A stretch of 64,000 nucleotides of DNA, from the IMG/VR virus record IMGVR_UViG_3300034022_000723, positions 1 to 64,000 of that record; one strand, 5' to 3'. Made by a program: the position numbers and the translations under genes. Positions 13,992-63,751 of the stretch are shown here, in pieces. Under the pieces are notes generated by a model. That model searched no databases. It saw nothing but the letters and a program-made list of their open reading frames with translations, and was not told where the DNA came from. This DNA comes from a virus. Numbering within the stretch: the stretch's first letter is position 1; each line of letters opens with the position of its first letter.

Positions 13992-14672
13992 ATGAATAAT
14001 ATCGGTATAGGAGTAATGTGTTTCGGTGACGTTTCCTATTTTAATAGTACAAAAGAAAAAGTTACCAATTTAAAAGATATTGGAATTGATTGTTATGTCT
14101 TAACCGATGACACAGAACAATTTACAACTAAAACTATATACTATGGTAGACACCTTAAGTCATATCATGATAAGATAATATTAGTTAAAGAAATATTAAA
14201 ATATCATAACATAGCAATATTAATTGATGCCGACACCATCATCAATGACTATTCAATTATTAACGATTTAAAAAACCACAAATTCAAAGACGGAATCACA
14301 TACATTGATAATCTATTATCAAATAAAGTTAATAAAGAGTTTATCGGTGAAATCAATTTAACTGCACCAGATTGGGATGAATATAAGAAGTACGTTGATA
14401 AATTATTACCAACATTTACAGAGTTAGAAACAATTAACGAATATTTCATTGTCTTTAATAATCAAGGACTTAAAGATGATTTCTTTTTACAATATGAAAA
14501 GTTGCAAGTGGTGAGAGAAAGTTGTGATATCAGAAGAATTAAAGAAATATACGCAGGTGGAGAAGGATTCTCAATACATATTGCATCAAAACTATCAAAT
14601 GTGTATATACAAAAAGATAATGAATTGTTTAATATGTTAAAAGATAATGTTATAAATGTAATAAAACAATAA
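13992..14672 (+). CDS. Putative GT-A glycosyltransferase
   Basis: 226 aa from the ATG at 13992; an in-frame TTG at 13965 is upstream of the promoter-like element and is rejected. Begins GIGVMCFGDVSYFNSTKEKV, with a nucleotide-sugar-binding-like N-terminus, YVLTDDTEQF, and the acidic DxD-type motif IDADTIIND at D79-D81 expected to bind the metal and sugar nucleotide. The second half (TYIDNLLSNK, INEYFIVFNN, YAGGEGFSIHIASKL) fits an acceptor-binding half of small retaining or inverting GT-A enzymes. Exact family uncertain. First gene of a coupled glycan-modification operon; 3 bases separate it from the methyltransferase. Confidence 0.6.
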   Translation: MNNIGIGVMCFGDVSYFNSTKEKVTNLKDIGIDCYVLTDDTEQFTTKTIYYGRHLKSYHDKIILVKEILKYHNIAILIDADTIINDYSIINDLKNHKFKDGITYIDNLLSNKVNKEFIGEINLTAPDWDEYKKYVDKLLPTFTELETINEYFIVFNNQGLKDDFFLQYEKLQVVRESCDIRRIKEIYAGGEGFSIHIASKLSNVYIQKDNELFNMLKDNVINVIKQ

Positions 14673-14675
14673 GTT

Positions 14676-15401
14676 ATGATTACCAATCAAGATTTTATTA
14701 AAGAAAAAATTACAACCAATTATGGTGAACCTGTACCTTATAGATGGACACATGGTGCCACCGAAGAACATTTAGGTGATGGTATTATAGTTTATTCGTT
14801 AATACAACATATGAGAGCCAAGAACTGCGCATGTATCGGTTCTGGTGGTGGATATATACCTCGTATTATAACACAAGCAAGATTAGATTTACATAAACAA
14901 GGAATATTTGAAGGTAACGACACTTTAAATTGGGGTGATATTGGTGTAACCTATCTGGTTGACGCTTGTAATGGGGTAGGAGGACCTAACGACCTTGAGG
15001 ATGAGTATTCATACTACCGACATACGTTTCAACCCAGATTGATTAAATCAACATCAGAAGATGCATATTATAATTTCTTTGTTTTACAAGATATTAAATT
15101 AGATTTTATCTTTATAGATGGTGACCATTCATATGAAGGAGTTAAGAAAGATTTTGAATTATATTCAACACTATTAACCGATAAAGGTATTATTGTTATT
15201 CACGATACAGATTCAGATTACGAGGAATCATTAATAGTTTCAGAGGACGCAAAAAAAGACCACCATAGATTTGACGGTCCATCAAAATTTATTAAAGAAT
15301 TAGAAAAAAATCCACTTTATAATTTGATTAATTTATTTAATTTTCGTATATTACCTAACAAACCAGCATCAAGCGGTATAACGGTAATTAATAAAAAATA
15401 A
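14676..15401 (+). CDS. Class I SAM-dependent methyltransferase
   Basis: 241 aa. Motifs: CIGSGGGYIPRI (~50-61), the SAM-binding glycine loop; LDFIFIDGDHSYEGVKKDF (~142-160), typical of the Methyltransf_24 group of sugar and small-molecule methyltransferases; then TDKGIIVIHDTD (post-motif strand). Substrate unknown; the flanking glycosyltransferases suggest O-methylation of a glycan. The stop overlaps the next ATG as TAATG. Confidence 0.75.
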   Translation: MITNQDFIKEKITTNYGEPVPYRWTHGATEEHLGDGIIVYSLIQHMRAKNCACIGSGGGYIPRIITQARLDLHKQGIFEGNDTLNWGDIGVTYLVDACNGVGGPNDLEDEYSYYRHTFQPRLIKSTSEDAYYNFFVLQDIKLDFIFIDGDHSYEGVKKDFELYSTLLTDKGIIVIHDTDSDYEESLIVSEDAKKDHHRFDGPSKFIKELEKNPLYNLINLFNFRILPNKPASSGITVINKK

Positions 15402-16258
15402 TGGTTAGGTTATTAACAGTTATAGGTCACGGAGTTAATTTACTTCCACATTTCATCAAACATTATAAAAGATATGTTGATGAGATTAACATTGCAATTT
15501 ATAAAACAGATTTATACCCAACATTAGAAGAAGATATAAATGAAATTATTAAAGACCATGACAATGTGAAGATTGTTAAGGTCATTGAAGATAGAGTTTT
15601 TGATTGGGAGAAAGTAACCGCATTATATAACTTCATTAAGGATCAAATACCATTTGATTGGTGGGTGATTGCCGACATTGATGAATTTCATTTATATCCT
15701 GATGATGATATTGTTTCATTAATTAACGATTGTGAAGAATTTGGATGGGATATTGTTCGAGGTGGTTTTATTGATAGAATTGGAGAAGATGGTGAGTTTG
15801 TTGAATTAAAAGATGATGTATCAATATGGGAACAATTTCCAAATGCCGGTTTTTTTAGATATCATATGAGTAAAGCGTGTCCAAATAAAATATGTTTAAT
15901 TAGAGGTGGAATACAAATTACTTCAGGTCAACACTATGCAAATATTGATGGACACACCACATGGAAATGGCAAGGTTGGGGTCATCCATCAATTGCACCA
16001 ATACCATCCTATTCAGTTCAAGTACATCATTTTAAATGGGATAAAACTTCCATAGATAGAGTGAAAGCGGTTGCAGAATTAAAAGAAGATTATTCTTATT
16101 CAGATGAGTATTTTAAAATGTTCACTGAATTGTTAAAAACAAAATATAAAATAAATCTAAATAAAAGAGAATATATGTTTGAATTGGGATTAATATATCC
16201 CGAATATAACAGATATAAAAGTTGGAATAAATTAATAAATAAAATAACATCAATATGA
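15401..16258 (+). CDS. Glycosyltransferase family 2/92-like protein
   Basis: 285 aa. N-terminal strand MVRLLTVIGHGVNLLPHFIK followed by a WWVIADIDEFHLYP motif (D92, D94, E95), the DxDEF pattern of GT92-like and related glycosyltransferases that hold a divalent metal. Further on GWDIVRGGFIDRIGEDG and a HHFKWD motif (~209-214) that also occurs in this group. Donor and acceptor unknown. Coupled upstream by TAATG and downstream by ATGA. Confidence 0.68.
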   Translation: MVRLLTVIGHGVNLLPHFIKHYKRYVDEINIAIYKTDLYPTLEEDINEIIKDHDNVKIVKVIEDRVFDWEKVTALYNFIKDQIPFDWWVIADIDEFHLYPDDDIVSLINDCEEFGWDIVRGGFIDRIGEDGEFVELKDDVSIWEQFPNAGFFRYHMSKACPNKICLIRGGIQITSGQHYANIDGHTTWKWQGWGHPSIAPIPSYSVQVHHFKWDKTSIDRVKAVAELKEDYSYSDEYFKMFTELLKTKYKINLNKREYMFELGLIYPEYNRYKSWNKLINKITSI

Positions 16259-16485
16259 GTGTAAAACCATCAAATGACGAGTTAATGGCTCTCGAAACAA
16301 GAAAAGTAAAAGCCTTAGAAAAAATTGCAAATTCATTAGATTCTTTAACCGTTTGGTTTGAAGAAATCGATAAAGATGAGTGGGGTAACAGAGCCCAATA
16401 TTATCTAGCGGAATTTCATAACAAATTTGTAAAAGAAGGTTTCGTTGAGGACAGTAAAGTAACAACTAAGAGTGGAAAAAAGTAA
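16255..16485 (+). CDS. Small protein of unknown function
   Basis: 76 aa, ATG overlapping the previous stop as ATGA. Sequence is mostly helical and charged: LETRKVKALEKIANSLDSL then VWFEEIDKDEWGNR and a Lys-rich tail. No recognised family, no membrane segment. Its 3' end overlaps the GTG start of the next gene by 14 bases. Could be an accessory or scaffolding subunit of the neighbouring transferases; that is only context. Confidence 0.55.
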   Translation: MSVKPSNDELMALETRKVKALEKIANSLDSLTVWFEEIDKDEWGNRAQYYLAEFHNKFVKEGFVEDSKVTTKSGKK

Positions 16486-17923
16486 AAAATTAGGAGTCGT
16501 TGTTCCATATAGAAATAGAAGAAGTCATTTAAAAGAATTTAGTAGACGATTTGTTAGATATATGGAAAAATTTGATATCAATTATGAATTAATTGTTATT
16601 AACCAAGACGATGCTAAATTATTTAATAGGGGAACATTATTAAATATCGGATTTAAGTATGCTGAAGAATTAAATTGTGATTATGTCGTATTTCATGATA
16701 TTGACATGATGCCAATACATGTTGATTATTCATATTCAGAGGTCCCGTTACATTTATCAACACATTTTTTAAATAATGAAGAGTATGATAAAAAATTAAC
16801 CTTCGAAGAATATTTTGGAGGAGTTGTAATGTTCCCAATGGAACATTTTCGTCAAATAGATGGGTATTCCAATAAGTATTGGGGTTGGGGTTATGAGGAC
16901 ACTGACTTACTTTATAGATGTGAAAAAAAAGGTATACCATTAAATGATTTAGATATTCAGAATGTGGGGACATCACCATCAAAAGTATTAAAACTTAATG
17001 GTATAAATGCATATGTTAAGGCAAGAAATGAATTTAAACTTAATCAAAATATGACATTTTTCGTTTCGTTTTATCCTACTGATTTAATATTAGACCATAC
17101 AAAAGACTCTGACGATTTTACTATATTTTCAATTCCAGGATACGATTTTTCAATTACGTATAATTCATTTCGTAGATATAATTTCTGCACTTTTGATAAA
17201 GACAATAATGCGGTTTATGTTAATTCAAATATAATAACAAATTATAAAACGAATATATGTGTTGTGTTAGACAACATTAACGACGTTATTAAAGTATATC
17301 AAGACGGAAAACTGATTGGGAAAGAAGTATTTTATAAAAAAATACGTTCATACGATAATGAAAAATATTTTTATTTAGGTGTAGGTAACCCAAAAAGAAA
17401 TGACACACCTAATTCTCAATATCCTAATTATTTTAATGGTTATATTTCAACATTCGCAGTATACAATTGTAATTTAAATGACAATGAAATTTTAGAAATA
17501 TCTAAAAATGAAAATAATAATTTAAAGGAAAATTTTGGTGATTATATATCATCACAAGACCTACAACTATATTATGACCCTAATTTTACTGAAGGTTATA
17601 AATTAAAAGATTTATCGGATAATTTAAATAACGGTAAAATTTTTAATTGTGAAATTGTTGATTTAGAATTTGAAAAATATAAAAGAATAAAAATACCACA
17701 TAGAAGAGAATCGACATTTGCATTATTACCACACAAAGAAAATGGGTTTTATAAAAACAAATGGAAATTCAAAGCAACCAGATGGAATCAATTAAGATTT
17801 TATAATGAAGTTAGATTAAATGACGAGTTATTGGAAAATGACGGATTATCAACATTGGAATTTGCTGAACATTCAAAAATTCAGATAAGTGAAAACATAA
17901 CACACGTTAACGTAGCAATATGA
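16472..17923 (+). CDS. Galactosyltransferase-like (GT7) enzyme fused to LamG-like domain
   Basis: 483 aa. GTG start at 16472 is needed to include VVVPYRNRRSHL (PYRNR 12-16), the donor-binding motif of beta-1,4-galactosyltransferase-like enzymes. Then FNRGTLLNIGF (~51-61), metal-site HDIDMMP (75-81), YFGGVVMF (114-121) and GYSNKYWGWGYEDTDL (131-146), all classic GT7 positions. Residues ~165-483 form a LamG-like jelly roll (FYPTDLILDHTKDSDDF, YNSFRRYNF, YFNGYISTFAVYNCNLNDNE). In known GT7 enzymes there is no such lectin extension; here it may bind acceptor glycan or tether the enzyme to a virion. Overlaps the next gene by 4 bases. Confidence 0.75.
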   Translation: MEKSKKLGVVVPYRNRRSHLKEFSRRFVRYMEKFDINYELIVINQDDAKLFNRGTLLNIGFKYAEELNCDYVVFHDIDMMPIHVDYSYSEVPLHLSTHFLNNEEYDKKLTFEEYFGGVVMFPMEHFRQIDGYSNKYWGWGYEDTDLLYRCEKKGIPLNDLDIQNVGTSPSKVLKLNGINAYVKARNEFKLNQNMTFFVSFYPTDLILDHTKDSDDFTIFSIPGYDFSITYNSFRRYNFCTFDKDNNAVYVNSNIITNYKTNICVVLDNINDVIKVYQDGKLIGKEVFYKKIRSYDNEKYFYLGVGNPKRNDTPNSQYPNYFNGYISTFAVYNCNLNDNEILEISKNENNNLKENFGDYISSQDLQLYYDPNFTEGYKLKDLSDNLNNGKIFNCEIVDLEFEKYKRIKIPHRRESTFALLPHKENGFYKNKWKFKATRWNQLRFYNEVRLNDELLENDGLSTLEFAEHSKIQISENITHVNVAI

Positions 17924-19338
17924 GTCATAAATTAGGTATTTGTATACCATATAGAGATAGAAAAGAACACATTGATAAATTAATACCACATCTATCAAAA
18001 CATTTAACAGATAATGGAATTGACCATACGTTTTATGTTGGTCACCAAGTAGACGAAAAGTTATTCAATAGAGGTGCAATGAAAAATATTGCAGCACATT
18101 ACGCGTTTGAAGACGGATGTGACTATGTTGCATGGCACGATGTTGATATGTTACCACAAGTAGATGCTGATTATTCGTATCCTGAAGAACATCCAACACA
18201 CATTGCAACAAAGTTATCAAAATATAATTACGGGTTAGGTTATGATCAATACTTTGGAGGTGTCGTTTTATTCACAAAAGAACAAGCATATAAAACCAAT
18301 GGATATTCAAATGAATATTGGGATTGGGGTCAGGAAGATGATGACTTATTTTGGAGATGTTATTTAGAAGGATATACAACGAATAATGTTTTTAAAACTT
18401 ATAAAAATAAAACAACGGCAACTTTTAATGGAATAAATAACTTTATAATTATACCGTCTAATAAAGAATTAGATAGTTGTTTGGATAATGACCATACAAT
18501 ATCAATATTATTTAATGCTGAACAACAACCAGAAAAGGTACCGATTTGGCTTGTTGGGGACGAAGAAAAGAAATTCATTGAGTACCCATTAATAAGAAAA
18601 TTAGATTCTTGGACTTGGGGATTATCGTTTAATAATTCACGTTCAGTTAATATGGTTATGTATGATAAAGATAGTAATCACTATTACAACTATGCAAAAA
18701 GATATGAAAATCAATGGACATGGGTGACAATGTCATATAATAGTAAAAGAAAGGAGATGTCATTATATATAAACGATGAATTAATTAATAATCAAAACGG
18801 AACTAAACAAAACACACCATTTAAAATTGAGAAAAAATTAAAACCATATAATAATCTACAACCATTTATAATTGGATTTTGTTCACACGTTAATACATTT
18901 TTTAAAGGTAAAATTGCGGAAATTAGAATTTTTAATAAATCAATAAATGATATCAATGAAGCGTTACATGATTCAGATGGATTGTTATTACAAATGGATT
19001 TTAAAAAGGGAGTTGTAGAAAATATTAATAAAGAAGAATGTGAATTTAATGTTAACATTTCAAAAGAAAATATTAATGTGGTTGAAAATGTGATTCCATT
19101 CAGAAAGGAAGGTAATTTTGACTGTATACCCCATATAGATGAGGGTTATGTTAAAGGAAAATGGGCTAAGGGGGAAACTACCGCTAGAAACGAAAAAAGA
19201 TTTGTTATGGAGATGCAACAGGGTTTAATTAAACATAATGAAGATGGATTAAACAATATATTAAATGTTTTGAATGTTGAAAATATTGATGTATCTTTAT
19301 ATGAAAATACTAAATTTATAAATGTTACAATGAAATGA
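17920..19338 (+). CDS. Galactosyltransferase-like (GT7) enzyme fused to LamG-like domain, second copy
   Basis: 472 aa, paralogue of the gene before it. GT7 motifs: CIPYRDRKEHI, FNRGAMKNI (~49-57), HDVDMLP (73-79), YFGGVVLF (111-118), GYSNEYWDWGQEDDDLFWR (128-146). LamG-like part (~165-400): ATFNGINNFIIIPSNKELD, TWVTMSYNSKRKEMSLYIND, FFKGKIAEIRIFNKSIND. Residues ~400-472 are a further extension. Two tandem copies could add two sugars in series or act on different acceptors. Ends in an ATGA overlap with the LamG-radical SAM gene. Confidence 0.75.
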   Translation: MSHKLGICIPYRDRKEHIDKLIPHLSKHLTDNGIDHTFYVGHQVDEKLFNRGAMKNIAAHYAFEDGCDYVAWHDVDMLPQVDADYSYPEEHPTHIATKLSKYNYGLGYDQYFGGVVLFTKEQAYKTNGYSNEYWDWGQEDDDLFWRCYLEGYTTNNVFKTYKNKTTATFNGINNFIIIPSNKELDSCLDNDHTISILFNAEQQPEKVPIWLVGDEEKKFIEYPLIRKLDSWTWGLSFNNSRSVNMVMYDKDSNHYYNYAKRYENQWTWVTMSYNSKRKEMSLYINDELINNQNGTKQNTPFKIEKKLKPYNNLQPFIIGFCSHVNTFFKGKIAEIRIFNKSINDINEALHDSDGLLLQMDFKKGVVENINKEECEFNVNISKENINVVENVIPFRKEGNFDCIPHIDEGYVKGKWAKGETTARNEKRFVMEMQQGLIKHNEDGLNNILNVLNVENIDVSLYENTKFINVTMK

Positions 19339-22136
19339 AAGTAGAAAATCAAAAACCTTGGTTATTTGAAATTAATAATCTTGATAGTAATAAGATAAAT
19401 CCGTTTTTATCTGATAGTTCCTATTTAACAATTGAATTTAAAGTTGAAAATTTTTACGATAATGAAAAATTAGGATTTTTAGGTATGCCAGGTAAAAACT
19501 TTGGAATTAGTTATGATTTTGAAGTTGAGACTTTTGTATTTGAATTTTGGACAAAAGGGTTGAACGGTAGAGATAATTTTCACTGCCATAAAGATTTCCA
19601 TATTAATAGAATTGATGTTGAAAATGGTCTTGTTTTAACTATACATTACGATAAAGAAAAAAATATATTAGAATTATATCATGACTTTAATATATTTTTC
19701 GATGTAGAATTAGACGACCCTTTAATTGAAGATTACTATACCCAACCACTTTATTTTGGTTGTCATAACCCCGATGCTGATAATCACAAACACAAATGTT
19801 TTACAGAATTAGATTTAAAACATTTTAGTATTTTTAATGGAGAGGCGAATATAGAAGATGTTGAAAAATTTTATAATAGTAAAAATCTTAATGATAATTT
19901 GTTATGTTACTTTGATTTAAAGGAAAAATATTTAGTTCATAAAGAAGACTATAATTATTTTCTAATACAAAATCAAAAAGATAAACTAATAAACATTTCA
20001 TTTAGTGAATTAAATGTCAGTGTTGCGGATAGAATAAAATTAAAAAGAAAAAGGGTACCTGGATTAAAAATTGAACATAAAAAACCATTTAAATTAAAAA
20101 CCAATTTAGAATCTAATTTATTAACAAATAGAGATTTTTCATTAAATATTATTTTTAAAATAGAACGTCATTTTACTCAAGATGAGAAAATTGGATTTTT
20201 TGGAATACCAGGTAAAAACTTTGGTATTAGCTTTGATTATGAAGTCGAGAAGTTTGTTTTTGAATATTGGACACAAAAAGATGAAGAAAATAAAGAATTT
20301 CATTGCCACAAAAACTATAAAATAAATCGTAACGATTTACATAATGGAATTACTATTAGTTTAATTTATAAAAAGAATGAATATTTCGAATTGTATCATA
20401 ATTTTAAATTAATTGACACAATTGAAGTTAAAGATAATTTAATATCTGAATACAATACGGAATCAATTTATTTCGGTTGCCATAATCCAAGTTCTTTATT
20501 AGAAAATCATAAATGTTTTACTGAAATGGAATTAAATCATTTTAGTATTTATGATGGAATTATGAATATTGTTGATTTAGAAAAACTAACAAAAACAGAT
20601 AATTCTTTAACTTATTTTAATTTTAAAAAAACTGATAATATTGATGAAATTTTTGACAATTTAAATAAAGAAACATCAATCGAACTTGTTGATTTATTAA
20701 CATTTAAGACAATGGTAGATTTTAATCTTGTTAAAGAAAAATTAAATAAAGTTGGTTGTGGTTTTTGTTTGGCTAAATGGACACAAGTGACTATGCATTT
20801 ACATAATGGAACAACACATAGTTGTCACCATCCTGAACCACATAAAATAGGGTTAGATGAAATTAAAAGAAACCCAACCGCATTACACAATAGTAATGTA
20901 AAGAAGAGAGCTAGGAAAGAAATGTTGGAAAACAAAAGACCAAGTGAATGTAATTATTGTTGGAATGTAGAAGATCATTCCGATTCATTTTCTGATAGAT
21001 TTTTTAAATCTGCGGAACCATGGTCTGAACCTCACTTTGACGAAATTGCCAACTTACATTGGAGAGATAACTACAACCCAAAATATGTTGAAGTTAATTT
21101 TTCTAACACATGTAATTTTAAATGTGCGTATTGTGGACCTGAATATTCGACCAAATGGATGGAAGAGATTAACGAACACGGAGGATATATGTTAGATACA
21201 CATGAATTTAATGGTCTCAGAAGGATGGAGGAAAGAAATACTAAACCATATAAACAAACAGATGAAAATCCATATGTGGAAGCGTTTTGGGAATGGTTCC
21301 CTGAATTATATTCAACTTTAGATACTTTTAGAATTACCGGTGGAGAACCTCTATTATCAAAAGACACATGGAAAGTATTAGATTTCATATTGGAAACTGA
21401 CACACCTAACGAAAATTTAAAATTATCAATCAATAGCAATTTAGGTGTATCAGATGAGTTGATTGATAAATTAATTTTAAAATTAGAAAAAATAATTGCT
21501 GAAGGTAGAGTTAAGGAGGTAATATTGTTTACATCATGTGAAGGATACGGTAAACAAGCCGAATACACAAGATTTGGATTGGAGTTTGATAGACTATTCT
21601 CAAACATAGATAAAATTTTAACGGTATTGGACAAAGTAACCATTGTAGTAATGTCAACTTTTAATATGTTTAGTATATTTTCATACGAAAAACTAATTAA
21701 AAAAATACATAGTTTTAAACTTAAACATTTCAATACATCAAGATATTGGAACTCGGCAGTTATTTTAGATACATCATATTTGAGACATCCTTCATTTATG
21801 AGTTTTAGAGTATTGAAAGATTATATTGATGTTGAGTACTTTAATAGGTGGTTAAAGTACATGAAATTTAATTCAACATATAGAAGTATTAATTTCTATG
21901 AACAACAAACTATTGAAGACGTCGGATTTTCAACCCAAGAGATTGAAAAAATTTCAAGAATAAAAGACATCTTCATTACAGATTACGATACTGACATTAA
22001 AGAATTTGATAGTAGTAAAAGAGATTTTATTAAATTCATTGATGAATATGAAAAAAGAAGAGGAGTAAATTGTGAGGAGTATTATCCCGAATTAATTAAT
22101 TTTATAAAGCAAATAAGAAATGATAATAAATTATAA
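19335..22136 (+). CDS. LamG-LamG-radical SAM fusion protein
   Basis: 933 aa. Two homologous ~220-residue lectin-like domains come first (copy 1 ~1-235, copy 2 ~240-440), each with GKNFGIS, FVFEFWT/FVFEYWT, YFGCHNP and HFSIF/HFSIY. From ~455 on: KVGCGFCLAKWTQVTMHLHN, CHHPEPHKIG, ECNYCWNVED (a Cys-rich N-terminal segment), then the radical SAM core with C593xxxC597xxC600 (CNFKCAYC) and a TGGEPLL glycine motif. Radical SAM enzymes of this Cys-rich 'twitch' type are known from phages of the T4 superfamily, reaction unknown. A lectin-radical SAM fusion suggests radical chemistry on a carbohydrate or glycoprotein. Confidence 0.72.
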   Translation: MKVENQKPWLFEINNLDSNKINPFLSDSSYLTIEFKVENFYDNEKLGFLGMPGKNFGISYDFEVETFVFEFWTKGLNGRDNFHCHKDFHINRIDVENGLVLTIHYDKEKNILELYHDFNIFFDVELDDPLIEDYYTQPLYFGCHNPDADNHKHKCFTELDLKHFSIFNGEANIEDVEKFYNSKNLNDNLLCYFDLKEKYLVHKEDYNYFLIQNQKDKLINISFSELNVSVADRIKLKRKRVPGLKIEHKKPFKLKTNLESNLLTNRDFSLNIIFKIERHFTQDEKIGFFGIPGKNFGISFDYEVEKFVFEYWTQKDEENKEFHCHKNYKINRNDLHNGITISLIYKKNEYFELYHNFKLIDTIEVKDNLISEYNTESIYFGCHNPSSLLENHKCFTEMELNHFSIYDGIMNIVDLEKLTKTDNSLTYFNFKKTDNIDEIFDNLNKETSIELVDLLTFKTMVDFNLVKEKLNKVGCGFCLAKWTQVTMHLHNGTTHSCHHPEPHKIGLDEIKRNPTALHNSNVKKRARKEMLENKRPSECNYCWNVEDHSDSFSDRFFKSAEPWSEPHFDEIANLHWRDNYNPKYVEVNFSNTCNFKCAYCGPEYSTKWMEEINEHGGYMLDTHEFNGLRRMEERNTKPYKQTDENPYVEAFWEWFPELYSTLDTFRITGGEPLLSKDTWKVLDFILETDTPNENLKLSINSNLGVSDELIDKLILKLEKIIAEGRVKEVILFTSCEGYGKQAEYTRFGLEFDRLFSNIDKILTVLDKVTIVVMSTFNMFSIFSYEKLIKKIHSFKLKHFNTSRYWNSAVILDTSYLRHPSFMSFRVLKDYIDVEYFNRWLKYMKFNSTYRSINFYEQQTIEDVGFSTQEIEKISRIKDIFITDYDTDIKEFDSSKRDFIKFIDEYEKRRGVNCEEYYPELINFIKQIRNDNKL

Positions 22137-27818: not shown

Positions 27819-27819
27819 T

Positions 27820-55041: not shown

Positions 55042-55046
55042 ATTGT

Positions 55047-56026: not shown

Positions 56027-56503
56027 ATGAATATATGTAAAAATTTATTATCAGACAAAGAGTTATTTTTTTTAAATTCAATATGTTCAAATTTTGTTGA
56101 GACACAATTACCACACAATCGTAATAACTACGTTAGAAAAAACTTAAATATAAAAGAAGAGTTGTTAGAATATCAAAAAAGATGCTCAAAATATTTACCA
56201 GATGGGTATCAATTATATGATTTATGGATTAACAAGGTAACCAATAAAACAAATATTGATGACAATTATCATATTGATGTTGCGGATTTAAGTATCATCA
56301 CCTACATTAATGAAAATTTTGAGGGTGGAGAATTTCAGTATATTTTTAAAAATGAAGAAATAAAAGTAAAACCAATTATAAACCATAGCTTAATTATAAA
56401 TAAAGAAATAGAACATAGAGTTCTTAATGTAACTAATGGAGAAAGATTTAGTTTAATTTCTTTTTATAAAAAAATACAAAAAAAACAAAAAACATTAATT
56501 TAA
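56027..56503 (+). CDS. 2-oxoglutarate/Fe(II)-dependent oxygenase
   Basis: 158 aa. H82xD84 (NYHIDVADLS), H130 (EIEHRV), R140 (GERFSLISF), with ITYINENFEGGEFQYIF as the core strands. Short, like other phage members. The start is in a TAAATG context right after the sulfotransferase. Likely hydroxylase in the decoration cluster. Confidence 0.75.
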   Translation: MNICKNLLSDKELFFLNSICSNFVETQLPHNRNNYVRKNLNIKEELLEYQKRCSKYLPDGYQLYDLWINKVTNKTNIDDNYHIDVADLSIITYINENFEGGEFQYIFKNEEIKVKPIINHSLIINKEIEHRVLNVTNGERFSLISFYKKIQKKQKTLI

Positions 56504-57565
56504 ATGAATACATTTAAAAATATAGATTTAAAAAATTATGTTTGTAGTGTTCCATTTAATTCATTAGAAATACATAATAATGTTTGCTTTGTATGTTGTC
56601 CATCTTGGTTACCAAATAAAATAGAACTTAATGAGATTCCTTTAAAAGATGTATATAATAGTGAACCTGTTATTGATATTAGAAATTCTATTTTAGATGG
56701 TTCATTTAAATATTGTAATAAAGAACTTTGCCCATATTTAAGTAAATTGGTAAATTACGGGGTAACATCTGGACCCGTTACTTTAAAAACAAAATTAAAC
56801 CCAAGTTTTTATAATCCTATTATAAAAAATAATACACCGGATTATCTTATAATGAATTTTGACAGGACATGCAATTATAAATGCCCTTCATGTAGAATTG
56901 ATTTAATTGTTGAAAATGGAGAAGGTATACAACGTGTTGAAAAAACAATTGAAGATATAGATAATTATTATTCTGCAAATGTAAAAACACTATACATAAC
57001 TGGTTCAGGTGACCCATTTGTATCGGTGGGGTTTAGAAATTATTTAAGAAATTTTAATCCTAAAAAATATCCAAAATTAATATCAATTCATTTACATACA
57101 AATGCAAGTATGTGGGATAAAAAAATGTGGGATAGTATGCCAAATATTCATAATTATGTAAACACTTGTGAAATCAGTATAGACGCTGGCACTAAAGATA
57201 CTTACGAAAATAAAACAAGAATAGGTGGCAATTGGGAAAATTTAATGAATAATCTTAAATTTATCAATACATTACCAATACGTGTTAAAACATCGTTTGT
57301 TGTTCAAGATAGTAATTATATGGAAATGGAAACATTTTATAATTTAATGTATTCTATATTTAGAAAAAAAGTAGATGTGTTTTTTGGAAAGATAACAAAT
57401 TGGGGAACATTTTCCGAAGGTGAATTTAAATTAAAACAAGTATGGGATGCCGAACATCCAGAACATGAATTATTTAAAAAAGAATTTAATAAAATATGGA
57501 AAAATCAAAATCTATTCCATAATTTATATGAGTTTATTGATAACACTAATAAAACTTTAATATAA
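56504..57565 (+). CDS. Radical SAM protein
   Basis: 353 aa. C123xxxC127xxC130 (CNYKCPSC) binds the 4Fe-4S cluster; YITGSGDPF replaces the usual GGEPL; ISIDAGTKDTYE is the typical radical SAM strand. N-terminal CSVPFNSLEIHNNVCFVCCPS and KYCNKELCPYL hold extra Cys. Unlike the two 'twitch' members at 19335 and 22906 it lacks the HxxHP segment. Reaction unknown. Confidence 0.75.
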   Translation: MNTFKNIDLKNYVCSVPFNSLEIHNNVCFVCCPSWLPNKIELNEIPLKDVYNSEPVIDIRNSILDGSFKYCNKELCPYLSKLVNYGVTSGPVTLKTKLNPSFYNPIIKNNTPDYLIMNFDRTCNYKCPSCRIDLIVENGEGIQRVEKTIEDIDNYYSANVKTLYITGSGDPFVSVGFRNYLRNFNPKKYPKLISIHLHTNASMWDKKMWDSMPNIHNYVNTCEISIDAGTKDTYENKTRIGGNWENLMNNLKFINTLPIRVKTSFVVQDSNYMEMETFYNLMYSIFRKKVDVFFGKITNWGTFSEGEFKLKQVWDAEHPEHELFKKEFNKIWKNQNLFHNLYEFIDNTNKTLI

Positions 57566-57571
57566 TTAAAT

Positions 57572-58087
57572 ATGAAACATAACATAATAAAAATTGACAT
57601 AAATGACATAAATTTAATAAAACAAGTTTATAAAAATGGTGAAGAAAATGGTCATAATGTAGAAACAAATCCATACAATAAAAGAAGGGATAAAAATACT
57701 TATAGTACTGAATTAGTTAAAAGTGAAACGTTTTTTTGTGATACACGTAATAAAGAATTAGTCGATATTGTTAAAAAATATATTAACATAAATGAAACAA
57801 CGGAATATATTGTTAATATGCATTATATTAATTATAAAATAGGTGAGGAAGCAAAAGAGCATATTGATACCGGTGCCTCAATAAGAACATATATAATATT
57901 ATTAAATGATAATTTTAATGGTGGTGAATTTTATCTGGATAATATCCATATCCCTCTAAAATTGGGCGAAATAATTGAATTTGATGCCAATTTATTACAT
58001 AAGGTTACTCCCATAATATCTGGCAATAGAGAAGTATTAGCGATATGGATTTTACCATCGCAAAAAAATAAAAAAACTTTAACATAG
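57572..58087 (+). CDS. 2-oxoglutarate/Fe(II)-dependent oxygenase
   Basis: 171 aa. H97, D99 (EHIDTGASIR), H143 (LLHKVTPI), R153 (GNREVLAIW); TYIILLNDNFNGGEFYL core strands. Typical small prolyl-4-hydroxylase-like enzyme. Its stop overlaps the next start as TAGTG. Confidence 0.77.
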   Translation: MKHNIIKIDINDINLIKQVYKNGEENGHNVETNPYNKRRDKNTYSTELVKSETFFCDTRNKELVDIVKKYININETTEYIVNMHYINYKIGEEAKEHIDTGASIRTYIILLNDNFNGGEFYLDNIHIPLKLGEIIEFDANLLHKVTPIISGNREVLAIWILPSQKNKKTLT

Positions 58088-58251
58088 TGATAGTCCTGAT
58101 TTTATCACGTACAAGATGTGGATCTACTACATTATGTAAATGGATATCAAAAGAATTAGATATTGAATTAGATGAAACCCCATATGATAAAAAATATAGA
58201 AAAGACACATATACTTTAACGTATGATTTTAAAAGAAAAAATATTATTTAG
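58087..58251 (+). pseudogene. Truncated sulfotransferase fragment
   Basis: 54 codons from GTG 58087 to TAG 58249-58251. MIVLILSRTRCGSTTLCKWI is a sulfotransferase N-terminus with the PAPS-binding loop RTRCGSTT, like RTGSTS in the 55427 gene, followed by KELDIELDETPYDKK and then a stop. The remaining ~150 residues (including the 3'-phosphate motif) are missing; the next gene starts inside the last 29 bases. Probably the remnant of a second sulfotransferase, cut by recombination with the oxygenase repeat. Less likely a functional mini-protein. Confidence 0.6.
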
Positions 58252-58777
58252 TAAAGAGGAGTGTCAGTCCATTTTGAAAAATATTGAAAAATGGGATGAT
58301 ACTATTATAAGCGTACGATTGGGTGGACAATTAACCAACAAAGGAGGTATTATGAAATCGTTTAAAATAAATTGGGACGATAATAATAGTTGGATTAAAA
58401 ATAGAGTTATAAATTGGGTTAATTCTTTGGATGAGGTTTTGTATAAAATAAATCATAATAAAAACTTAAATGCGGGTTATAGAAAATATATCAAAGGTGA
58501 TTATTTTATAAAACATGATGATCATATTTACAATGGGGATAGGAGATTGTATACTATTGGTGTGATGATTCATAAATCGGAAGATTTAATTGGTGGAGAT
58601 TTAAAAATGTATATTAATAATGATGTAGTTAATATTGATTTTAATTTAGGTAATGTATATATATTTGATTCAAATACACCACATTCAGTTGATTTAATTG
58701 AATTGGGAGAAAGAATTACACTTATGTTTTTTATAGTTCAATCTGATACTATTAAAAATATAAAACATATTATATGA
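58223..58777 (+). CDS. 2-oxoglutarate/Fe(II)-dependent oxygenase
   Basis: 184 aa. H98, D100 (IKHDDHI), H154 (NTPHSVDL), R164 (GERITLMF); IGVMIHKSEDLIGGDLKMY core. N-terminal LFSKEECQSI is identical in the next gene and is encoded by a 29-base direct repeat, so the pair is a recent partial duplication or recombination product. Overlaps the next gene by 4 bases. Confidence 0.75.
   Translation: MILKEKILFSKEECQSILKNIEKWDDTIISVRLGGQLTNKGGIMKSFKINWDDNNSWIKNRVINWVNSLDEVLYKINHNKNLNAGYRKYIKGDYFIKHDDHIYNGDRRLYTIGVMIHKSEDLIGGDLKMYINNDVVNIDFNLGNVYIFDSNTPHSVDLIELGERITLMFFIVQSDTIKNIKHII
58245..58273 (+). repeat. 29-bp direct repeat, copy 1
   Basis: Identical over 29 bases to 58793-58821 (spacing 548). 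Lies at the codons for LFSKEECQSI and spans the stop codon of the truncated sulfotransferase. Confidence 0.9.
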
Positions 58778-59271
58778 TAAAACAAAATAAACTATTTAGT
58801 AAAGAGGAGTGTCAGTCCATTATTTTTTATGGAAGTAATAATATTACCGATTGGGATTATAACGATAGAAAATACCACTCACAACCAATTAATTATTCAT
58901 TAGATACTAAATGGTTATTTGATAAGTTAAAGGATTTTGTTGAAAGAGAAACAACAATTAGGATTAGAACAATAAAAAAAACGATACATTTTCATAAATT
59001 TACAAAAGGTGATTGGTTTGGAAAACATAACGATGTTAGAGATAGAAGATTATACGCCGTGGGAGTTTTATTGAACGATGATTTTGAAGGTGGTGATTTT
59101 AAATTATACAACCCAAATGAAATTATATTAGATAAAGTTATTGGAAATACATATTTATTTGATGTAAGAATAGACCACGAAATAACACCAATTTTAGATG
59201 GAGAACGATATTCTTTATTGTGGTTTTTACAAAACGAACATGTAAAAATAGAAACAAATAAATTAATATAA
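58774..59271 (+). CDS. 2-oxoglutarate/Fe(II)-dependent oxygenase
   Basis: 165 aa. H85, D87 (GKHNDVRDR), H135 (RIDHEITPI), R145 (GERYSLLWF), VGVLLNDDFEGGDFKLY. The C-terminal half is close to the 58223 protein in layout but clearly different in sequence; only the start is nearly identical. Tandem copies may hydroxylate different sites. Confidence 0.77.
   Translation: MIKQNKLFSKEECQSIIFYGSNNITDWDYNDRKYHSQPINYSLDTKWLFDKLKDFVERETTIRIRTIKKTIHFHKFTKGDWFGKHNDVRDRRLYAVGVLLNDDFEGGDFKLYNPNEIILDKVIGNTYLFDVRIDHEITPILDGERYSLLWFLQNEHVKIETNKLI
58793..58821 (+). repeat. 29-bp direct repeat, copy 2
   Basis: Second copy of the repeat at 58245-58273. Recombination between the two would delete or duplicate one oxygenase. 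Confidence 0.9.
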
Positions 59272-59272
59272 T

Positions 59273-59923
59273 ATGGAAAAAATATACTTTGATGATGAGA
59301 CATACATATGGAAAACTAAATTTGATATATCACATATGAAAGATAGTGTATTAGAAGAATGCCTTATTATTATTAAAGATATGGAAGATTTAAAGCCGAC
59401 GGATGCTTTTGGATTCTTTAGTGAATGGAAAGAAAATATAGATTTTAATGGTAATTTTGAATCAACTGCAAAAATACATGAAATAGTTAAAGAAGGAATA
59501 AATGTGTGTATTGAATTGTTTAATGAAAATATAAAATTACCATACAATAAAATAAATACAGAGGCGTGGATAAATGTTGTGAGAGCTAAAAATCCAAAGC
59601 AAAAAGATATTTCTAAGGAAAACGAAATAGTAATGCACAATCATACTGATTTAAATCATATGAGTAAAGTTTTTAGACCTGATTACACATATGTTCACTA
59701 TGTTCAGATGCCTGATAATTTAGAAGGTAACGATGGTGTGTTATACATAGAGGGTAAAGATGGAATTATTTATAATATTCTTCCAAAAGAAAATGATATA
59801 ATAATAATGGAAGGAAGAGTTCCACACGTACCTGCCTCTGCTAGAAAATCTACCAAAGATAGAATAGTTATAGCGGGTAATGTTGGATTTGAAATGATTA
59901 AAAAAACAAATACCTTAATATGA
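59273..59923 (+). CDS. 2OG-Fe(II) oxygenase-like protein
   Basis: 216 aa. MHNHTDLNHMSK (H124, D126), VHYVQMPDNLEGNDGVLYIE (core strands), IIIMEGRVPHVPASAR (H185) and R197 (KDRIVIAGNVGF) give the HxD...H...R set of Fe(II)/2OG enzymes in a cupin-like fold. Longer N-terminus than the other five. Overlaps the SGNH gene by 4 bases. Confidence 0.65.
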   Translation: MEKIYFDDETYIWKTKFDISHMKDSVLEECLIIIKDMEDLKPTDAFGFFSEWKENIDFNGNFESTAKIHEIVKEGINVCIELFNENIKLPYNKINTEAWINVVRAKNPKQKDISKENEIVMHNHTDLNHMSKVFRPDYTYVHYVQMPDNLEGNDGVLYIEGKDGIIYNILPKENDIIIMEGRVPHVPASARKSTKDRIVIAGNVGFEMIKKTNTLI

Positions 59924-60723
59924 GTCCATTAGAATATTGGAAACCTGAGACTTTTGAAATCTCATCATTTAAGTTTAAATTAGATGAACGAAAAAACAAA
60001 ATATTTAAAACATCGGGATCAGATAATACAGGTTTATGTACCTACACCTATAATGAATTAGGATTTAGGGGGGATAGTATAAAAAAAGAAGGATTTAAAG
60101 TAATGTCTTTGGGTTGTTCAATTACGGAAGGAGTTGGTGTAAATGATAATGAAACTTGGCCTGCACAATTTTGTAGTCATATGGAAAATGCGGTAAATTT
60201 TAATTTCGGAACAGGTGGAAGAAGTAATGATTTTATATGTAGATGTTTAATGAGTTATTATGATTTGATTAAACCAGATTTGGTTTTAATAATGTATACA
60301 TTCCCACATAGAAGAGAAATTTATACCGAAGATGGTGGAATTGAACCATTTATTCCAACAACTTCTTGGGGTTATTTAAAGGAGACGGATGACGGTATTA
60401 AAACACAAGAATATTTAACTTATTTACAAAATAATAATGAGGACATAATAAATTGGTATAAAAATCATTTATTAATAAAATATTTTTTAGAATCAAAAAA
60501 ATGTAATTGGATTTGGAATGGTGGAGAATTAAAATCACTTGAATATGATGACCCCAATAGGTTTGATGGAGATTACGGGAAATATTTAGATTTAGGTGTG
60601 GATAATCATCATCCAGGTCCAAACCATAATAAAACATATGCTCATAATTTACATGATTTTATATCAAAAAATTTCCCACAGTACATAAATAATTTACCAA
60701 AAAATATAGAAAATTTGATTTGA
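59920..60723 (+). CDS. SGNH/GDSL hydrolase-like protein
   Basis: 267 aa. LGCSITEGVGVNDNETW (block I, GCSITEG), GTGGRSNDFI (block II), IMYTFPHRREIY (block III-like), and DNHHPGPNHNKTYAHNLHDF (His). The N-terminal ~60 residues before block I (YTYNELGFRGD) are an extension typical of lipolytic SGNH proteins with a substrate-side strand. Last gene of this coupled run. Confidence 0.67.
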   Translation: MSPLEYWKPETFEISSFKFKLDERKNKIFKTSGSDNTGLCTYTYNELGFRGDSIKKEGFKVMSLGCSITEGVGVNDNETWPAQFCSHMENAVNFNFGTGGRSNDFICRCLMSYYDLIKPDLVLIMYTFPHRREIYTEDGGIEPFIPTTSWGYLKETDDGIKTQEYLTYLQNNNEDIINWYKNHLLIKYFLESKKCNWIWNGGELKSLEYDDPNRFDGDYGKYLDLGVDNHHPGPNHNKTYAHNLHDFISKNFPQYINNLPKNIENLI

Positions 60724-60734
60724 TTTTTCATTTA

Positions 60735-60749
60735 TTTTCATTATATTAT
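60735..60749 (+). promoter_or_regulatory. TTTTCATTATATTAT promoter candidate
   Basis: T-rich tract followed by TTATATTAT (60741-60749), 5 bases before the ATG at 60755. Only signal visible in the 31-base gap before the 998-aa gene. Confidence 0.5.
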
Positions 60750-60754
60750 CATTA

Positions 60755-63751
60755 ATGAAAATACTTGCACATACATGTTTTATCGGAGTAACAGGATATG
60801 CTAATCACGCAAAGTCCTTTTTTTGTGCTCTGAACAAATACCACACAGTTAAGGTTAGAAACTCTACCATAGGTGGGGGTTGGAAGGGAATGAACGATAC
60901 ACCTCATGATGATGAACCATATATCACCGATGAGATGAAGGATATGTTAATTCTACAAACCCTAATCAATGGTGATGGTAGTAGATCTCATTTACCTATG
61001 TATGGTTATAAGAATGATTATAAACCTGACGTTCATATTGTATTGGTGGATATGAACAACTATTATTTTCACGAGAATTACGATGGATATAAGATAGCAT
61101 ATAACGTTTGGGAATCAACACGTTACCCACAAGATTTCTTTAAAAGATTAATGTATTTTGATGAGGTATGGGTACCGACCCAATGGCAGTTTGATTGTTT
61201 GGTTGAACAAGGATATCCATCATCAAAAATATCAATTGTACCTGAAGGAGTTGATGTGGAGACATTTAAACCGTTAAATAAGACACCAAAGAAAGATAAA
61301 TTTAGATTCTTACACTTTGGTAGATGGGATTATAGAAAAGGAACTACAGAGGTTTTAAGGACATTTGGTGAGGTTTTTAAAGGTAGAACCGATGTGGAGT
61401 TGATTGCGTCAGTTGAAAACCCATACGCATACGACGGAATGAAGACCACAGATGAAAGGGTTAAGTATCATAATATTAATGATGAGAATATTAACTTTAT
61501 TAAGTTCACCCCAAGAGAGGATTATGTGAAGTATCTACAAGAAGGTGACGTGTTCGTTACTTGTGCTCGTAGTGAGGGATGGAACTTACCGTTGATTGAG
61601 GCTATGGCTTGTGGAACACCATCAATTTACTCTAATTGGGGAGGTCAATTAGAATTTGCGGAAGGTAATGGTGTTCCCGTTAAGATAGATGGTTTAAGAC
61701 CTGCAAATGTGGAACATAAAGATTTCCCTGGTGAATATTGTGAACCAGATTGGAAAGATTTGGGAGAACAAATGTTAAATGTAATGAATGATTATAAAAA
61801 GTTTAAATCATTCGCAATAGAAGAATCAAAGGAAATTCATATAGATTTCAATTGGGATAAAATAGCAAAAACAGCATCAGAAATATTAATGGAAAAGAAA
61901 ACAATTAGAGAAGATGATTTTTATAAATCAGGAAAATTCTACACAGATGTAGACGTATTAGAAAATTTAGGGGACATTAAAGATTACCAAGGAGGGACTC
62001 TTGAAGTTGCGGATAAGTTTGGTTGGCCGAGAGCAATTTATCATGAAATTTTTAATTTAAAAGATTATTATAAATTCCCCAATCAAGACAAACGAATATT
62101 TGATGGAGATGTGGTAGTTGATTTAGGAGGAAACTTAGGTATCTTTAATAGATGGGCTTATAGTCAAGGTGCGTCTAAAGTAATTTCATTTGAACCAGAT
62201 AGAAGGTATTTCCAATTACTTTCAAAAAATGCCGACCCACGTTCAATATTATATAATGGTGCAATTGCGGATGAGATGGGTGAATTGGTTTTATCCGAAA
62301 CTGGACATTTAGGTGGATCTACATTATTGGAAACAAATGAAGTAACTAACACTTATGCTGTTAAAACATATACATTAAATCATTTGTTTGAAACAGGTGT
62401 TGTAAATAAAATAGATTTTTTAAAGATGGATATTGAAGGTGCTGAACATCACGCATTTTTAGGTATATCGGATGAAAATCTATTAAAGGTTAGAAACATA
62501 GCAATGGAATATCACCATAATTTATTAGGGTATAATGTTGAACTAAGAGAAAACCTTATCAAAAGAATGGCAGGATTAGGATTTGGTCATTTTACTTTAT
62601 TTTGTGGAGGTAACGACAACTTACAAATGTTATATTTTGAAAGAAAGGTCGCATCAAATAGAAGAACAAATGTACATTTCGTAGATGGTCCATTTGTTGA
62701 AATTAATGAGGATAATGAACACCAGTACAATGTTCAATTTATTGATGGGGATACGGGTGACATTGTCTATGAAACCAACATCAAGAGTAATCATTGGACA
62801 AGAGCATCTAAAAAATATTATGTTAATTGGATTGTTAAGATTAAAGGTATTGATAATAATTTTTATAGAGAGGAGAAATTTAATCCTGAAGGTCAAAGAA
62901 TTATGATATGTTTCGAATCTAAATCTTTGGGGGATAGTTTAGCGTGGATACCATATGTAGAAGAGTTTAGAATTAAAAATAAGTGTCATATTATATGTTC
63001 AACATTTAAAAATGATTTATTTAAAGGGCAATATCCTGAAATTGAATTTGTGGAACCTGGTGTTGGGGTGAATAACATTTATGGTCTATATAGATTAGGT
63101 TTATTTTATGATGATAAAAGAACAATTAGATATGATAATCATCCGTCCAATCCTAAAGTAGAACCATTGGGTAAAATGGCAACGGATATATTGGGTTTAG
63201 AATATAAAGAGATTAGACCTAAATTACCAACTTTTAGTAATAAGAAAAAGAAAAGAGTGTGTATTGCTGTCCATTCAACATCACAATGTAAGTATTGGAA
63301 CAACGCAACAGGATGGCAACAAGTGGTTAATCATCTTAAAAGGAAAGGTTATGAGGTAAGATTATTATCTAGAGAAGAGGATGGATATATGGGTAATAAG
63401 AACCCACAAGGGGTCGTACAACAAAAATCAGGACCAATCGAGAAGGTAATTCAAGTTTTAGAAGAGTCGGAACTTTTTATAGGTATTGGTAGTGGATTAA
63501 GTTGGTTGGCGTGGTCTGTGGGTATTCCTTGTGTCATCATTTCAGGTTTTAGTGAGGAATATAGTGAACCAACAATCGGAGTTTCAAGAATTATTAATAA
63601 AGATGTTTGTCATGGATGTTGGAATGTTTACGATTTTAACCCTGGAGATTGGAACTGGTGCCCTGTAAATAAAGGTACAAAACAACAATTTGAATGTTCC
63701 AAATCAATCACAGGTCAAGATGTCATAAAAGAAATTGATAAATTAATATAA
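60755..63751 (+). CDS. GT4 glycosyltransferase, FkbM methyltransferase and O-heptosyltransferase fusion
   Basis: 998 aa, three domains. (1) ~1-385, GT-B glycosyltransferase of GT4 type: VWVPTQWQFDCLV, FLHFGRWDYRKGT, ARSEGWNLPLIEAMACGTPS (donor site with E of the EX7E motif). (2) ~420-640, FkbM-type methyltransferase: VVVDLGGNLGIFN, VISFEPDRRYFQLL, DFLKMDIEGAEHHAFLG. (3) ~650-998, like bacterial autotransporter O-heptosyltransferases (TibC/BAHT, GT9-like): SKSLGDSLAWIPYVEEF, FIGIGSGLSWLAWSVGIP, and four Cys C952, C955, C969, C981 that match the iron site of that family. Could act as a self-contained glycan initiator or tailor, with protein O-glycosylation by domain 3. Visually less AT-rich than its neighbours. 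Confidence 0.82.
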   Translation: MKILAHTCFIGVTGYANHAKSFFCALNKYHTVKVRNSTIGGGWKGMNDTPHDDEPYITDEMKDMLILQTLINGDGSRSHLPMYGYKNDYKPDVHIVLVDMNNYYFHENYDGYKIAYNVWESTRYPQDFFKRLMYFDEVWVPTQWQFDCLVEQGYPSSKISIVPEGVDVETFKPLNKTPKKDKFRFLHFGRWDYRKGTTEVLRTFGEVFKGRTDVELIASVENPYAYDGMKTTDERVKYHNINDENINFIKFTPREDYVKYLQEGDVFVTCARSEGWNLPLIEAMACGTPSIYSNWGGQLEFAEGNGVPVKIDGLRPANVEHKDFPGEYCEPDWKDLGEQMLNVMNDYKKFKSFAIEESKEIHIDFNWDKIAKTASEILMEKKTIREDDFYKSGKFYTDVDVLENLGDIKDYQGGTLEVADKFGWPRAIYHEIFNLKDYYKFPNQDKRIFDGDVVVDLGGNLGIFNRWAYSQGASKVISFEPDRRYFQLLSKNADPRSILYNGAIADEMGELVLSETGHLGGSTLLETNEVTNTYAVKTYTLNHLFETGVVNKIDFLKMDIEGAEHHAFLGISDENLLKVRNIAMEYHHNLLGYNVELRENLIKRMAGLGFGHFTLFCGGNDNLQMLYFERKVASNRRTNVHFVDGPFVEINEDNEHQYNVQFIDGDTGDIVYETNIKSNHWTRASKKYYVNWIVKIKGIDNNFYREEKFNPEGQRIMICFESKSLGDSLAWIPYVEEFRIKNKCHIICSTFKNDLFKGQYPEIEFVEPGVGVNNIYGLYRLGLFYDDKRTIRYDNHPSNPKVEPLGKMATDILGLEYKEIRPKLPTFSNKKKKRVCIAVHSTSQCKYWNNATGWQQVVNHLKRKGYEVRLLSREEDGYMGNKNPQGVVQQKSGPIEKVIQVLEESELFIGIGSGLSWLAWSVGIPCVIISGFSEEYSEPTIGVSRIINKDVCHGCWNVYDFNPGDWNWCPVNKGTKQQFECSKSITGQDVIKEIDKLI

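Follow-up and report, generated by a model that had tools for sequence, protein, structure and literature searches.

Pelagimyophages carry hypervariable host recognition clusters (HRCs), in which fibres are combined with glycosyltransferases over a mean length of 44.6 kb (PMC7029224), and Prochlorococcus phage P-SSM2 bears 24 lipopolysaccharide (LPS) genes in two clusters, plus a Nol carbamoyltransferase (PMC2984593). The Megavirinae encode clusters for fibril glycosylation, which reach 49 kb and 33 genes in Tupanvirus and include adenylyl-sulfate kinase genes (PMC10117803). Here, we describe a sugar and tailoring gene cluster in a 64,000-nucleotide stretch of viral DNA (the window), which comprises bases 1–64,000 of the 116,519-base IMG/VR virus record IMGVR_UViG_3300034022_000723, itself a fragment of the genome. 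Judged from its sequence, the cluster is best explained as the hypervariable host-recognition/glycan locus of a large T4-like phage, and its right-hand part holds tailoring enzymes that share a C-terminal peptide tag. An initial annotation knew of no phage system of this kind; the pelagimyophage and P-SSM2 loci, together with the carbamoyltransferases in 145 GenBank phage records, are precedents.

A mosaic sugar locus between phage tail fibres

Pfam scans of 50 open reading frames (ORFs) revealed a sugar/tailoring cluster at 13,965–63,751 (~50 kb, ~50 ORFs, nearly all on the + strand; genes are named below by coordinate). Upstream lies a tail-fibre block (1–13950, +) with PHROG tail-fibre matches, which contains collagen-like (GSNGTDGSSG)n, mucin-like (TP)n and LamG-type repeats; the mucin-like fibres occupy 1426–3120 and 3146–5086 (+; 28/35 TP pairs). 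A collagen-like fibre, at 63,818, follows the cluster. The fibres, which contain G-S/N/T repeats along with mucin-like (TP)n stretches, have a Ser+Thr fraction of 0.23–0.38, versus a cluster median of 0.10. The order of fibre block, cluster and fibre 63818 is kept in the related phages G004 and G005 although the middle differs, and both possess a (TP)n fibre (66 or 108 TP pairs).

The same virus occurs elsewhere in IMG/VR as contigs of 144 and 212 kb, with 100% protein identity across the compared loci, and T4-type structural and replication genes are apparent by eye in the upstream part of the 212-kb contig. Hidden Markov model (HMM) searches identified the T4 major capsid protein Gp23 (PF07068) at full length in the relatives G003, G005, G007 and G008; the window's own contig and G002, from the same virus, have just an 87-aa piece of it. 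In a limited synteny test, around the closest bacterial homologues of one gene, 48000, the same gene order was found in 0 of 46 loci, which have no more than scattered single genes in common with the cluster. The proposal of the initial annotation that glycan synthesis is phage-borne and encoded between fibre genes is supported by the phage homologues of the fibres and by Gp23 in the relatives. The sugar genes continue past the right-hand end of the cluster that it gave (13,992–63,751): downstream of the fibre, at contig positions 67,056–81,524 and hence past the end of the window, a second sugar-type block on the − strand contains glycosyltransferase-, short-chain dehydrogenase/reductase (SDR)-, DegT- and methyltransferase-like genes (by eye), and its position is kept in related phages. 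Within this block, the 87-aa protein (contig 78,408–78,671, −; locus L004) matches only Gp23 positions 135–195; it is also encoded in G001, G002, G004, G005, G010 and G011, and is 88–95% conserved in G004/G005.

Comparison with ten groups of loci from related phages shows a mosaic: within one relative, neighbouring genes are 95–100% identical or missing. The left cassette (14676–22906) is common to G004, G005 and G007 and partly to G008, and the amidino cassette (25129–28731) is shared as a unit only with G007 and G008. Loci L024 and L025/35 contain the heptose/ColD cassette, and L021 has its 48000 gene; the thiamine pyrophosphate (TPP) cassette is common to G004, G005 and L025/35, one subunit being shared with G003. 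The run of carbamoyltransferase, kinase, nucleotidyltransferase (NTase) and DUF2061 genes recurs in 8/10 groups, with identity up to 100%. The best explanation would be that cassettes are exchangeable between the same fibre genes and are swapped by recombination. In the SAR11/Pelagibacteraceae single-cell loci L082 and L088, the heptose-dehydratase homologue lies close to both TPP subunits and to an SDR resembling 44897.

Shine-Dalgarno motifs are absent (7% vs 8% background), and lipoprotein and signal peptides appear Bacteroidota-like by eye. Both features would fit a Bacteroidota host, as has been proposed for large aquatic 'moraphages' (PMC12619734). At contig 102,570–104,000 there is a lipoprotein-like protein that has VCBS/FG-GAP-type repeats and a signal resembling those of Bacteroidota (by eye).

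An ATP-grasp/HINT protein and a shared C-terminal tag

The 53.1–60.8 kb block is probably a separate module, composed of an ATP-grasp/HINT/Cys-rich protein and C-terminally tagged tailoring enzymes, and this right-hand 8 kb probably represents a system other than plain glycan synthesis. Gene 53109 (53109–54638, +) encodes a glutathione synthase (GSS)-like ATP-grasp part, a HINT domain and a Cys-rich tail, as determined by alignment, a structure model, Foldseek and 57 homologues. The N-terminal half resembles eukaryotic GSS, an ATP-grasp enzyme (Foldseek E 5.5e-5), and the C-terminal half has the HINT fold of BIL2, inteins and hedgehog (6y75, E 4e-8); the pLDDT of the full-length model is 68. 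Residues E22, N24, R107 and K168 and the terminal HINT residues His462-Asn463 are invariant across 57 distinct sequences, and in 57/57 homologues the His-Asn is followed by a hypervariable tail of 23–56 residues with a median of 8 Cys. HINT position 1 (280) is Pro in 55/57 and block-B position 374 is Ser in 54/57, while the +1 residue is variable (positions mapped by eye). Compared with the HINT domains of inteins and bacterial intein-like (BIL) proteins, 53109 shares the fold and the invariant terminal His-Asn, but it is fused to an ATP-grasp part and a Cys-rich tail, carries mostly Pro at position 1 and Ser for the block-B His, and has no conserved +1 nucleophile. Because position 1 and the block-B His are changed, N-terminal cleavage or splicing as in an intein is unlikely, and C-terminal Asn cleavage would be possible.

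The 53109-type protein is encoded in at least 230 IMG/VR stretches, whereas no match was obtained in 50,697 GenBank phage records at E<=0.01. The HINT domain is always joined to the ATP-grasp part (188/188), and none was found on other proteins. The likeness to a pathway for ribosomally synthesised and post-translationally modified peptides (RiPPs) of the graspetide-like kind, in which a precursor peptide is modified by an ATP-grasp ligase, lies in architecture only. As far as searched here, the ATP-grasp/HINT/Cys-rich protein appears to be a new architecture, and full-text literature searches for the HINT/ATP-grasp system and the C-terminal tag gave no paper. In the ATP-grasp homologues of L107–L109, the place of the Cys-rich tail is taken by a further HINT domain of the canonical Cys1...VHN kind, which follows the first in tandem. 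The gene downstream of 53109 (54757–55041, +) encodes a 94-aa Cys-motif (zinc-ribbon-like) partner with the C-terminus KTLY, which is present in 80/80 HINT-gene loci (alignment).

The tailoring enzymes at 55047–60723 (+) comprise SET and sulfotransferase-like proteins, four 2-oxoglutarate (2OG)-Fe(II) oxygenases by Pfam plus 59273, a radical SAM enzyme and an SGNH protein. Most of them end in [KN][TSKN][LI][IL]-COOH or a close variant. Among 11 genes counted in 54757–60755, five carry the strict tag and nine end in [LIVF][ILV], compared with 5 and 14 of 230 elsewhere; the corresponding p values (1.6e-5 and 6e-9) are descriptive, because the patterns were noticed while looking. The relatives extend the pattern, with the reservation that they are partly independent yet of common ancestry and that the counts take in near-identical records: the broader form occurs in 208/261 distinct members of nine families, and the strict form in 288/993 ORFs (29%) of HINT loci, in contrast to 0/196 in four cultured-phage stretches, 2/652 (0.3%) in bacterial loci and 1/86 in the upstream region of this virus. 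At the HINT gene, the tag frequency rises from ~10% of genes upstream to ~51% downstream. The tag is carried by 282 distinct proteins from 32 unrelated clusters, among which are a Trp halogenase, an Asp/Asn hydroxylase and a B12-radical SAM enzyme; UDP-glucose dehydrogenase (UGDH) and GT-B proteins are also tagged.

The codons for K, T and L of the tag match the background, and the last Ile alone is skewed to ATA (73% vs 48%). The idea that the tag merely reflects a start-site motif in the DNA of the following gene was rejected on three observations: the K/T/L codons are background-like, 33 tagged genes are separated from the next start by >40 nt, and where genes overlap directly, as with the NTase upstream of DUF2061, the tag is missing (0/48). 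Codon use indicates that selection acts on the protein, and the simplest and most likely reading is that the tag recruits the enzymes to one common partner by docking. The data do not support the view that the tag strictly depends on the HINT gene, as 12% of proteins are tagged in NTase loci without a visible HINT gene versus 24% with one, many of these loci being fragmentary. A tag common to unrelated folds and selected at the protein level would represent a mode of enzyme organisation not yet described in phages. Eight ORFs, mostly small, at contig 106,430–116,186 (L006) and 78,408 contain the motif F[KRV]F[FL][RHET][GD] ('KFFRG'), usually near the N-terminus, which is possibly a second peptide tag.

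Sugar-enzyme cassettes and a GT-B family

Within 13,965–63,751, Pfam recognises two GT7+LamG proteins, one GT4-FkbM-GT9 protein, a UGDH, four SDRs, two DegT-type proteins, a carbamoyltransferase, an APS-kinase family protein, SET, FkbM and type-24 methyltransferases, and E1-alpha/Transket_pyr (TPP) proteins. Five 2OG-Fe(II) oxygenases were found by Pfam and a sixth (59273) by eye, two radical SAM enzymes by Pfam and a further one (22906) via NCBIfam N_Twi_rSAM, and two SGNH/GDSL proteins by Pfam with others by eye.

The first conserved gene of the left cassette encodes a Methyltransf_24 protein (14676–15401, +; Pfam) with 73–83% identity in G004/G005/G007. Two GT7 glycosyltransferases fused to lectin-like LamG domains (16472–19338, +; Pfam) follow, and the run at 19335–24354 (+) encodes LamG-like repeats with a radical SAM domain (19335), a LamG-like protein (22120) and a twitch-domain radical SAM enzyme (22906; 298 bits to NCBIfam NF033640), as assigned by Pfam and by phmmer of the LamG-like parts. 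Outside the window, IscU-, IscA- and ferredoxin-like genes (contig 90,102–91,165 and 98,631–98,948, by eye) form an iron-sulfur assembly set, perhaps for radical SAM enzymes. The amidino cassette (25129–28731, +) contains a HIRR-motif glycosyltransferase-like protein (25129, by eye), a half-length DegT protein (26219), an amidinotransferase (26808) and an SDR (27820). The amidinotransferase, already named in the initial annotation, is of the StrB1 type: it scores 326 bits to StrB1 inosamine-phosphate amidinotransferase across residues 1–335 and retains the catalytic-Cys motif HSRTLGGSFHC. A split TPP enzyme (34069–35261, −; Pfam and PDB) is formed by the transketolase-pyr-like 34069 and the E1-alpha-like 34629, which matches pyruvate dehydrogenase E1-alpha weakly (38 bits, PDB). 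Single ORFs join 34069-like TPP-subunit and GT-B-like parts (L025/L035:8255-9997) or SDR-like and GT-B-like parts (L009:11013-13136), hinting at coupled steps. The predicted UGDH-like enzyme was found at 36641–37780 (+), with the catalytic Cys retained in GDGGGCHPRD (by eye).

The heptose/ColD cassette includes a ColD/RfbH-type 3-dehydratase (43723–44904, +), which agrees with the earlier ColD-like assignment (PDB 2gms, 181 bits; NCBIfam RfbH, 219.5 bits, under the cutoff) and carries His where aminotransferases have the pyridoxal phosphate Lys (FGHHITTIEGG, by eye). Two GDP-fucose-synthase-like SDRs (44897 and 45870; 44897–46820, +) follow, for which a ColC-type step is possible. Gene 48000 (48000–49010, +) had been called a GDP-mannose 4,6-dehydratase (GMD); its best PDB match is instead GDP-D-glycero-D-manno-heptose 4,6-dehydratase (7us5, 362 bits versus 138 for E. 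coli GMD), and TIGR01472 gives 170 bits against a cutoff of 415. Since a heptose-dehydratase-type enzyme, a ColD-type enzyme and two GDP-fucose-synthase-like SDRs are encoded together, a route of 4,6-dehydration followed by 3-deoxygenation and epimerisation/reduction is plausible, with the substrate predicted from the families.

Seven domains in six genes, which Pfam does not recognise, constitute one family: 28759–30048 (+), 32803–34068 (−), 35355–36644, 38494–40872 (two copies), 46802–47938 and 49013–50221. Genes of five domains are linked by blastp, with representatives aligned; the two-copy 38494 and 46802 were placed by eye and blast links. An AlphaFold model has a pLDDT of 85.7, and Foldseek ranks T4 beta-glucosyltransferase (BGT) at the top (E 6e-4), with PglA, a fucosyltransferase and others at weaker E. 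These domains are predicted to be GT-B glycosyltransferases, an assignment limited to the fold level because the Foldseek scores are modest. No match to the family was found in GenBank phages at E<=1e-5.

A NodU/TobZ-family carbamoyltransferase (50223–51890, +; Pfam), with relatives in phages, precedes a conserved operon of an APS-kinase family protein, an NMNAT-like NTase and a DUF2061 membrane protein (52049–53081, +). DUF2061 follows the NTase in 80/80 kept loci and the kinase lies upstream in 55/80; a search of plasmids for DUF2061 neighbours gave no match. The APS kinase of the initial annotation holds at family level, but the specific call does not, as 52049 scores 64.6 bits against the NCBIfam apsK cutoff of 138.7 and no sulfurylase partner was found; the sulfotransferase lacks Pfam support. 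Given this score and the downstream NTase (52483, a weak NMNAT-like match), sulfation by the cluster is possible yet unproven. Stenotrophomonas phage vB_SmaS_Bhz60 (Casjensviridae; L255:3587-4324) encodes a natural kinase-NTase fusion of what are neighbours at 52,049–52,869 here, and 52049 and 52483 therefore probably act in sequence. The GT4-FkbM methyltransferase-GT9 protein (60755–63751, +; Pfam) ends in DKLI.

Contrary to the initial annotation, the set is incomplete: neither a sulfurylase nor GDP-heptose precursor enzymes were recognised among the cluster genes, nor was lipid-linked assembly machinery. Hydropathy and Pfam detected no flippase, polymerase or initiating glycosyl-phosphate transferase (Wzx/Wzy/PGT-like) in 14–64 kb; the one membrane protein in the cluster is the short DUF2061 protein, and four further single-window hydropathy hits lie in soluble enzymes.

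Proposed fibre decoration and alternative functions

We give about even chances to the reading that the cluster serves to decorate the phage's own Ser/Thr-rich fibres with sugars in the cytosol. Soluble enzymes would make unusual activated sugars (a uronic acid and a GDP-6-deoxy-heptose or 3,6-dideoxy sugar), to which amino/guanidino and carbamoyl groups would be added, as the enzyme families suggest. About a dozen glycosyltransferase domains and the tailoring enzymes would then act in the cytosol, attaching these sugars to the mucin-like and collagen-like tail fibres and modifying them there. Because the cluster proteins appear soluble, the flanking fibres are rich in Ser/Thr and giant viruses glycosylate their fibres, this role is favoured over the main rival, in which the enzymes alter the surface polysaccharide (O-antigen/capsule) of the infected host, so that receptors are hidden from competitors or progeny are kept off debris. 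Such a change of the host surface has been proposed for P-SSM2 and pelagimyophages (PMC2984593, PMC7029224), and some enzymes have bacterial surface-sugar relatives, as in L082 and L088. It seems somewhat unlikely here: no cluster gene was recognised as encoding a lipid-linked initiating transferase, a flippase, a polymerase or an acceptor ligase, so that such a change would rely wholly on host machinery, and the cassettes change while the fibre context remains. Several points also weigh against fibre decoration. The fibre target and the substrate specificities are predictions from gene content, adjacency is weak functional evidence because islands near fibres are hypervariable anyway, and the precursor routes are incomplete; membrane steps could come from elsewhere in the genome, of which the record is a fragment. 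In a promoter test of late expression alongside the fibres, the T4-type late promoter TATAAATA is not enriched ahead of cluster genes and AT-rich upstream k-mers are uninformative. For pelagimyophages, the published authors prefer host O-antigen change (PMC7029224). T4-like host-recognition islands can resemble swappable capsule loci minus the membrane steps, which would make phage fibre glycosylation testable.

The 53.1–60.8 kb block may tentatively be read as a RiPP-like or protein-tailoring system, which could coexist with a glycan role of the remaining genes: the HINT domain would release the Cys-rich peptide, and the tagged enzymes would modify this peptide or a shared partner. The invariant His-Asn end with its Cys-rich tail, the exclusive pairing of HINT with ATP-grasp, the rise of tag frequency at the HINT gene, and the halogenase, hydroxylase and B12-radical SAM enzyme among the tagged relatives are consistent with it; yet peptide release and modification are predicted from sequence, the HINT activity is uncertain given the replaced residues, the pLDDT of the full-length model is only 68, and the tagged UGDH and GT-B proteins fit sugar work. 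The fuller version appears unlikely, in which C-terminal Asn cleavage releases a hypervariable Cys-rich miniprotein and the tag recruits swappable, unrelated enzymes (2OG oxygenases, radical SAM, sulfotransferases, halogenase, SGNH, methyltransferases and some sugar enzymes) to one partner. Modification of phage DNA by the carbamoyltransferase, glycosyltransferases and oxygenases is very improbable. It could draw on the 5-hydroxymethylcytosine carbamoyltransferases of the same family in phages (PMC8670742), the top fold match of the GT-B family to T4 BGT, and a DNA methylase-like ORF at 87,270 (by eye). However, no thymidylate-synthase/dCMP-hydroxymethylase homologue was found in the window's contig, the near-identical G002, G003, G004 or G005 (PF00303 is absent from G000, G002–G005 and G008, records that may be fragments, with the control positive in 9 genomes); G007 alone has a hydroxymethylase homologue, and no 50223 homologue was seen in the loci compared from it. 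Carbamoyltransferases flanked by glycosyltransferases belong to unmodified contigs (PMC8670742), which, with the missing hydroxymethylase in carbamoyltransferase-bearing relatives, makes DNA modification unlikely; Tet_JBP (PF12851) gave no match in a search without a positive control, and the gene content goes far beyond what is needed. Although many enzymes have bacterial homologues, the chance that the window is in truth a capsule locus from a bacterium, wrongly binned as viral, is negligible in view of the fibres on both sides, the same architecture in several virus records, Gp23 in relatives and the lack of synteny with the 46 bacterial loci.

Comparison with known systems

With the HRCs of pelagimyophages and cyanomyophages (PMC7029224), the locus shares a T4-like phage background and a large, nonsyntenic, hypervariable island (~35–45 kb in HRCs) with fibres, glycosyltransferases and radical SAM cassettes. 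HRCs lie between VrlC and gp14; the neck profile PF11649 matched nothing here, controls included. The present phage belongs to another lineage and has in addition the heptose/ColD, amidino and carbamoyl cassettes, the GT-B family and the ATP-grasp/HINT tagged block. A Wzx/Wzy capsule or O-antigen locus differs in its membrane proteins, as hydropathy indicates no multi-transmembrane protein in 14–64 kb. P-SSM2 likewise has phage-borne surface-sugar genes and a Nol-type carbamoyltransferase, with fewer genes; a 50-kb stretch around Nol, rather than its LPS clusters, gave two weak protein matches to this contig. Megavirinae such as Tupanvirus resemble the locus in virus-encoded nucleotide-sugar pathways, many glycosyltransferases, methyltransferases, adenylyl-sulfate kinase and nearby fibre proteins, but are eukaryotic giant viruses of an unrelated lineage, in which the fibril glycans have been chemically shown. 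Synechococcus phage S-SCSM2R (PQ898602) encodes a related amidinotransferase (42%) and short DegT protein (48%) with glycosyltransferases, radical SAM and 2OG oxygenases, whereas the carbamoyl, HINT and heptose cassettes are absent from that stretch and tagged proteins from all four cultured-phage stretches. The ~50-kb sugar locus is a larger version of a kind known in marine phages, and the tagged 53.1–60.8 kb block appears to be undescribed.

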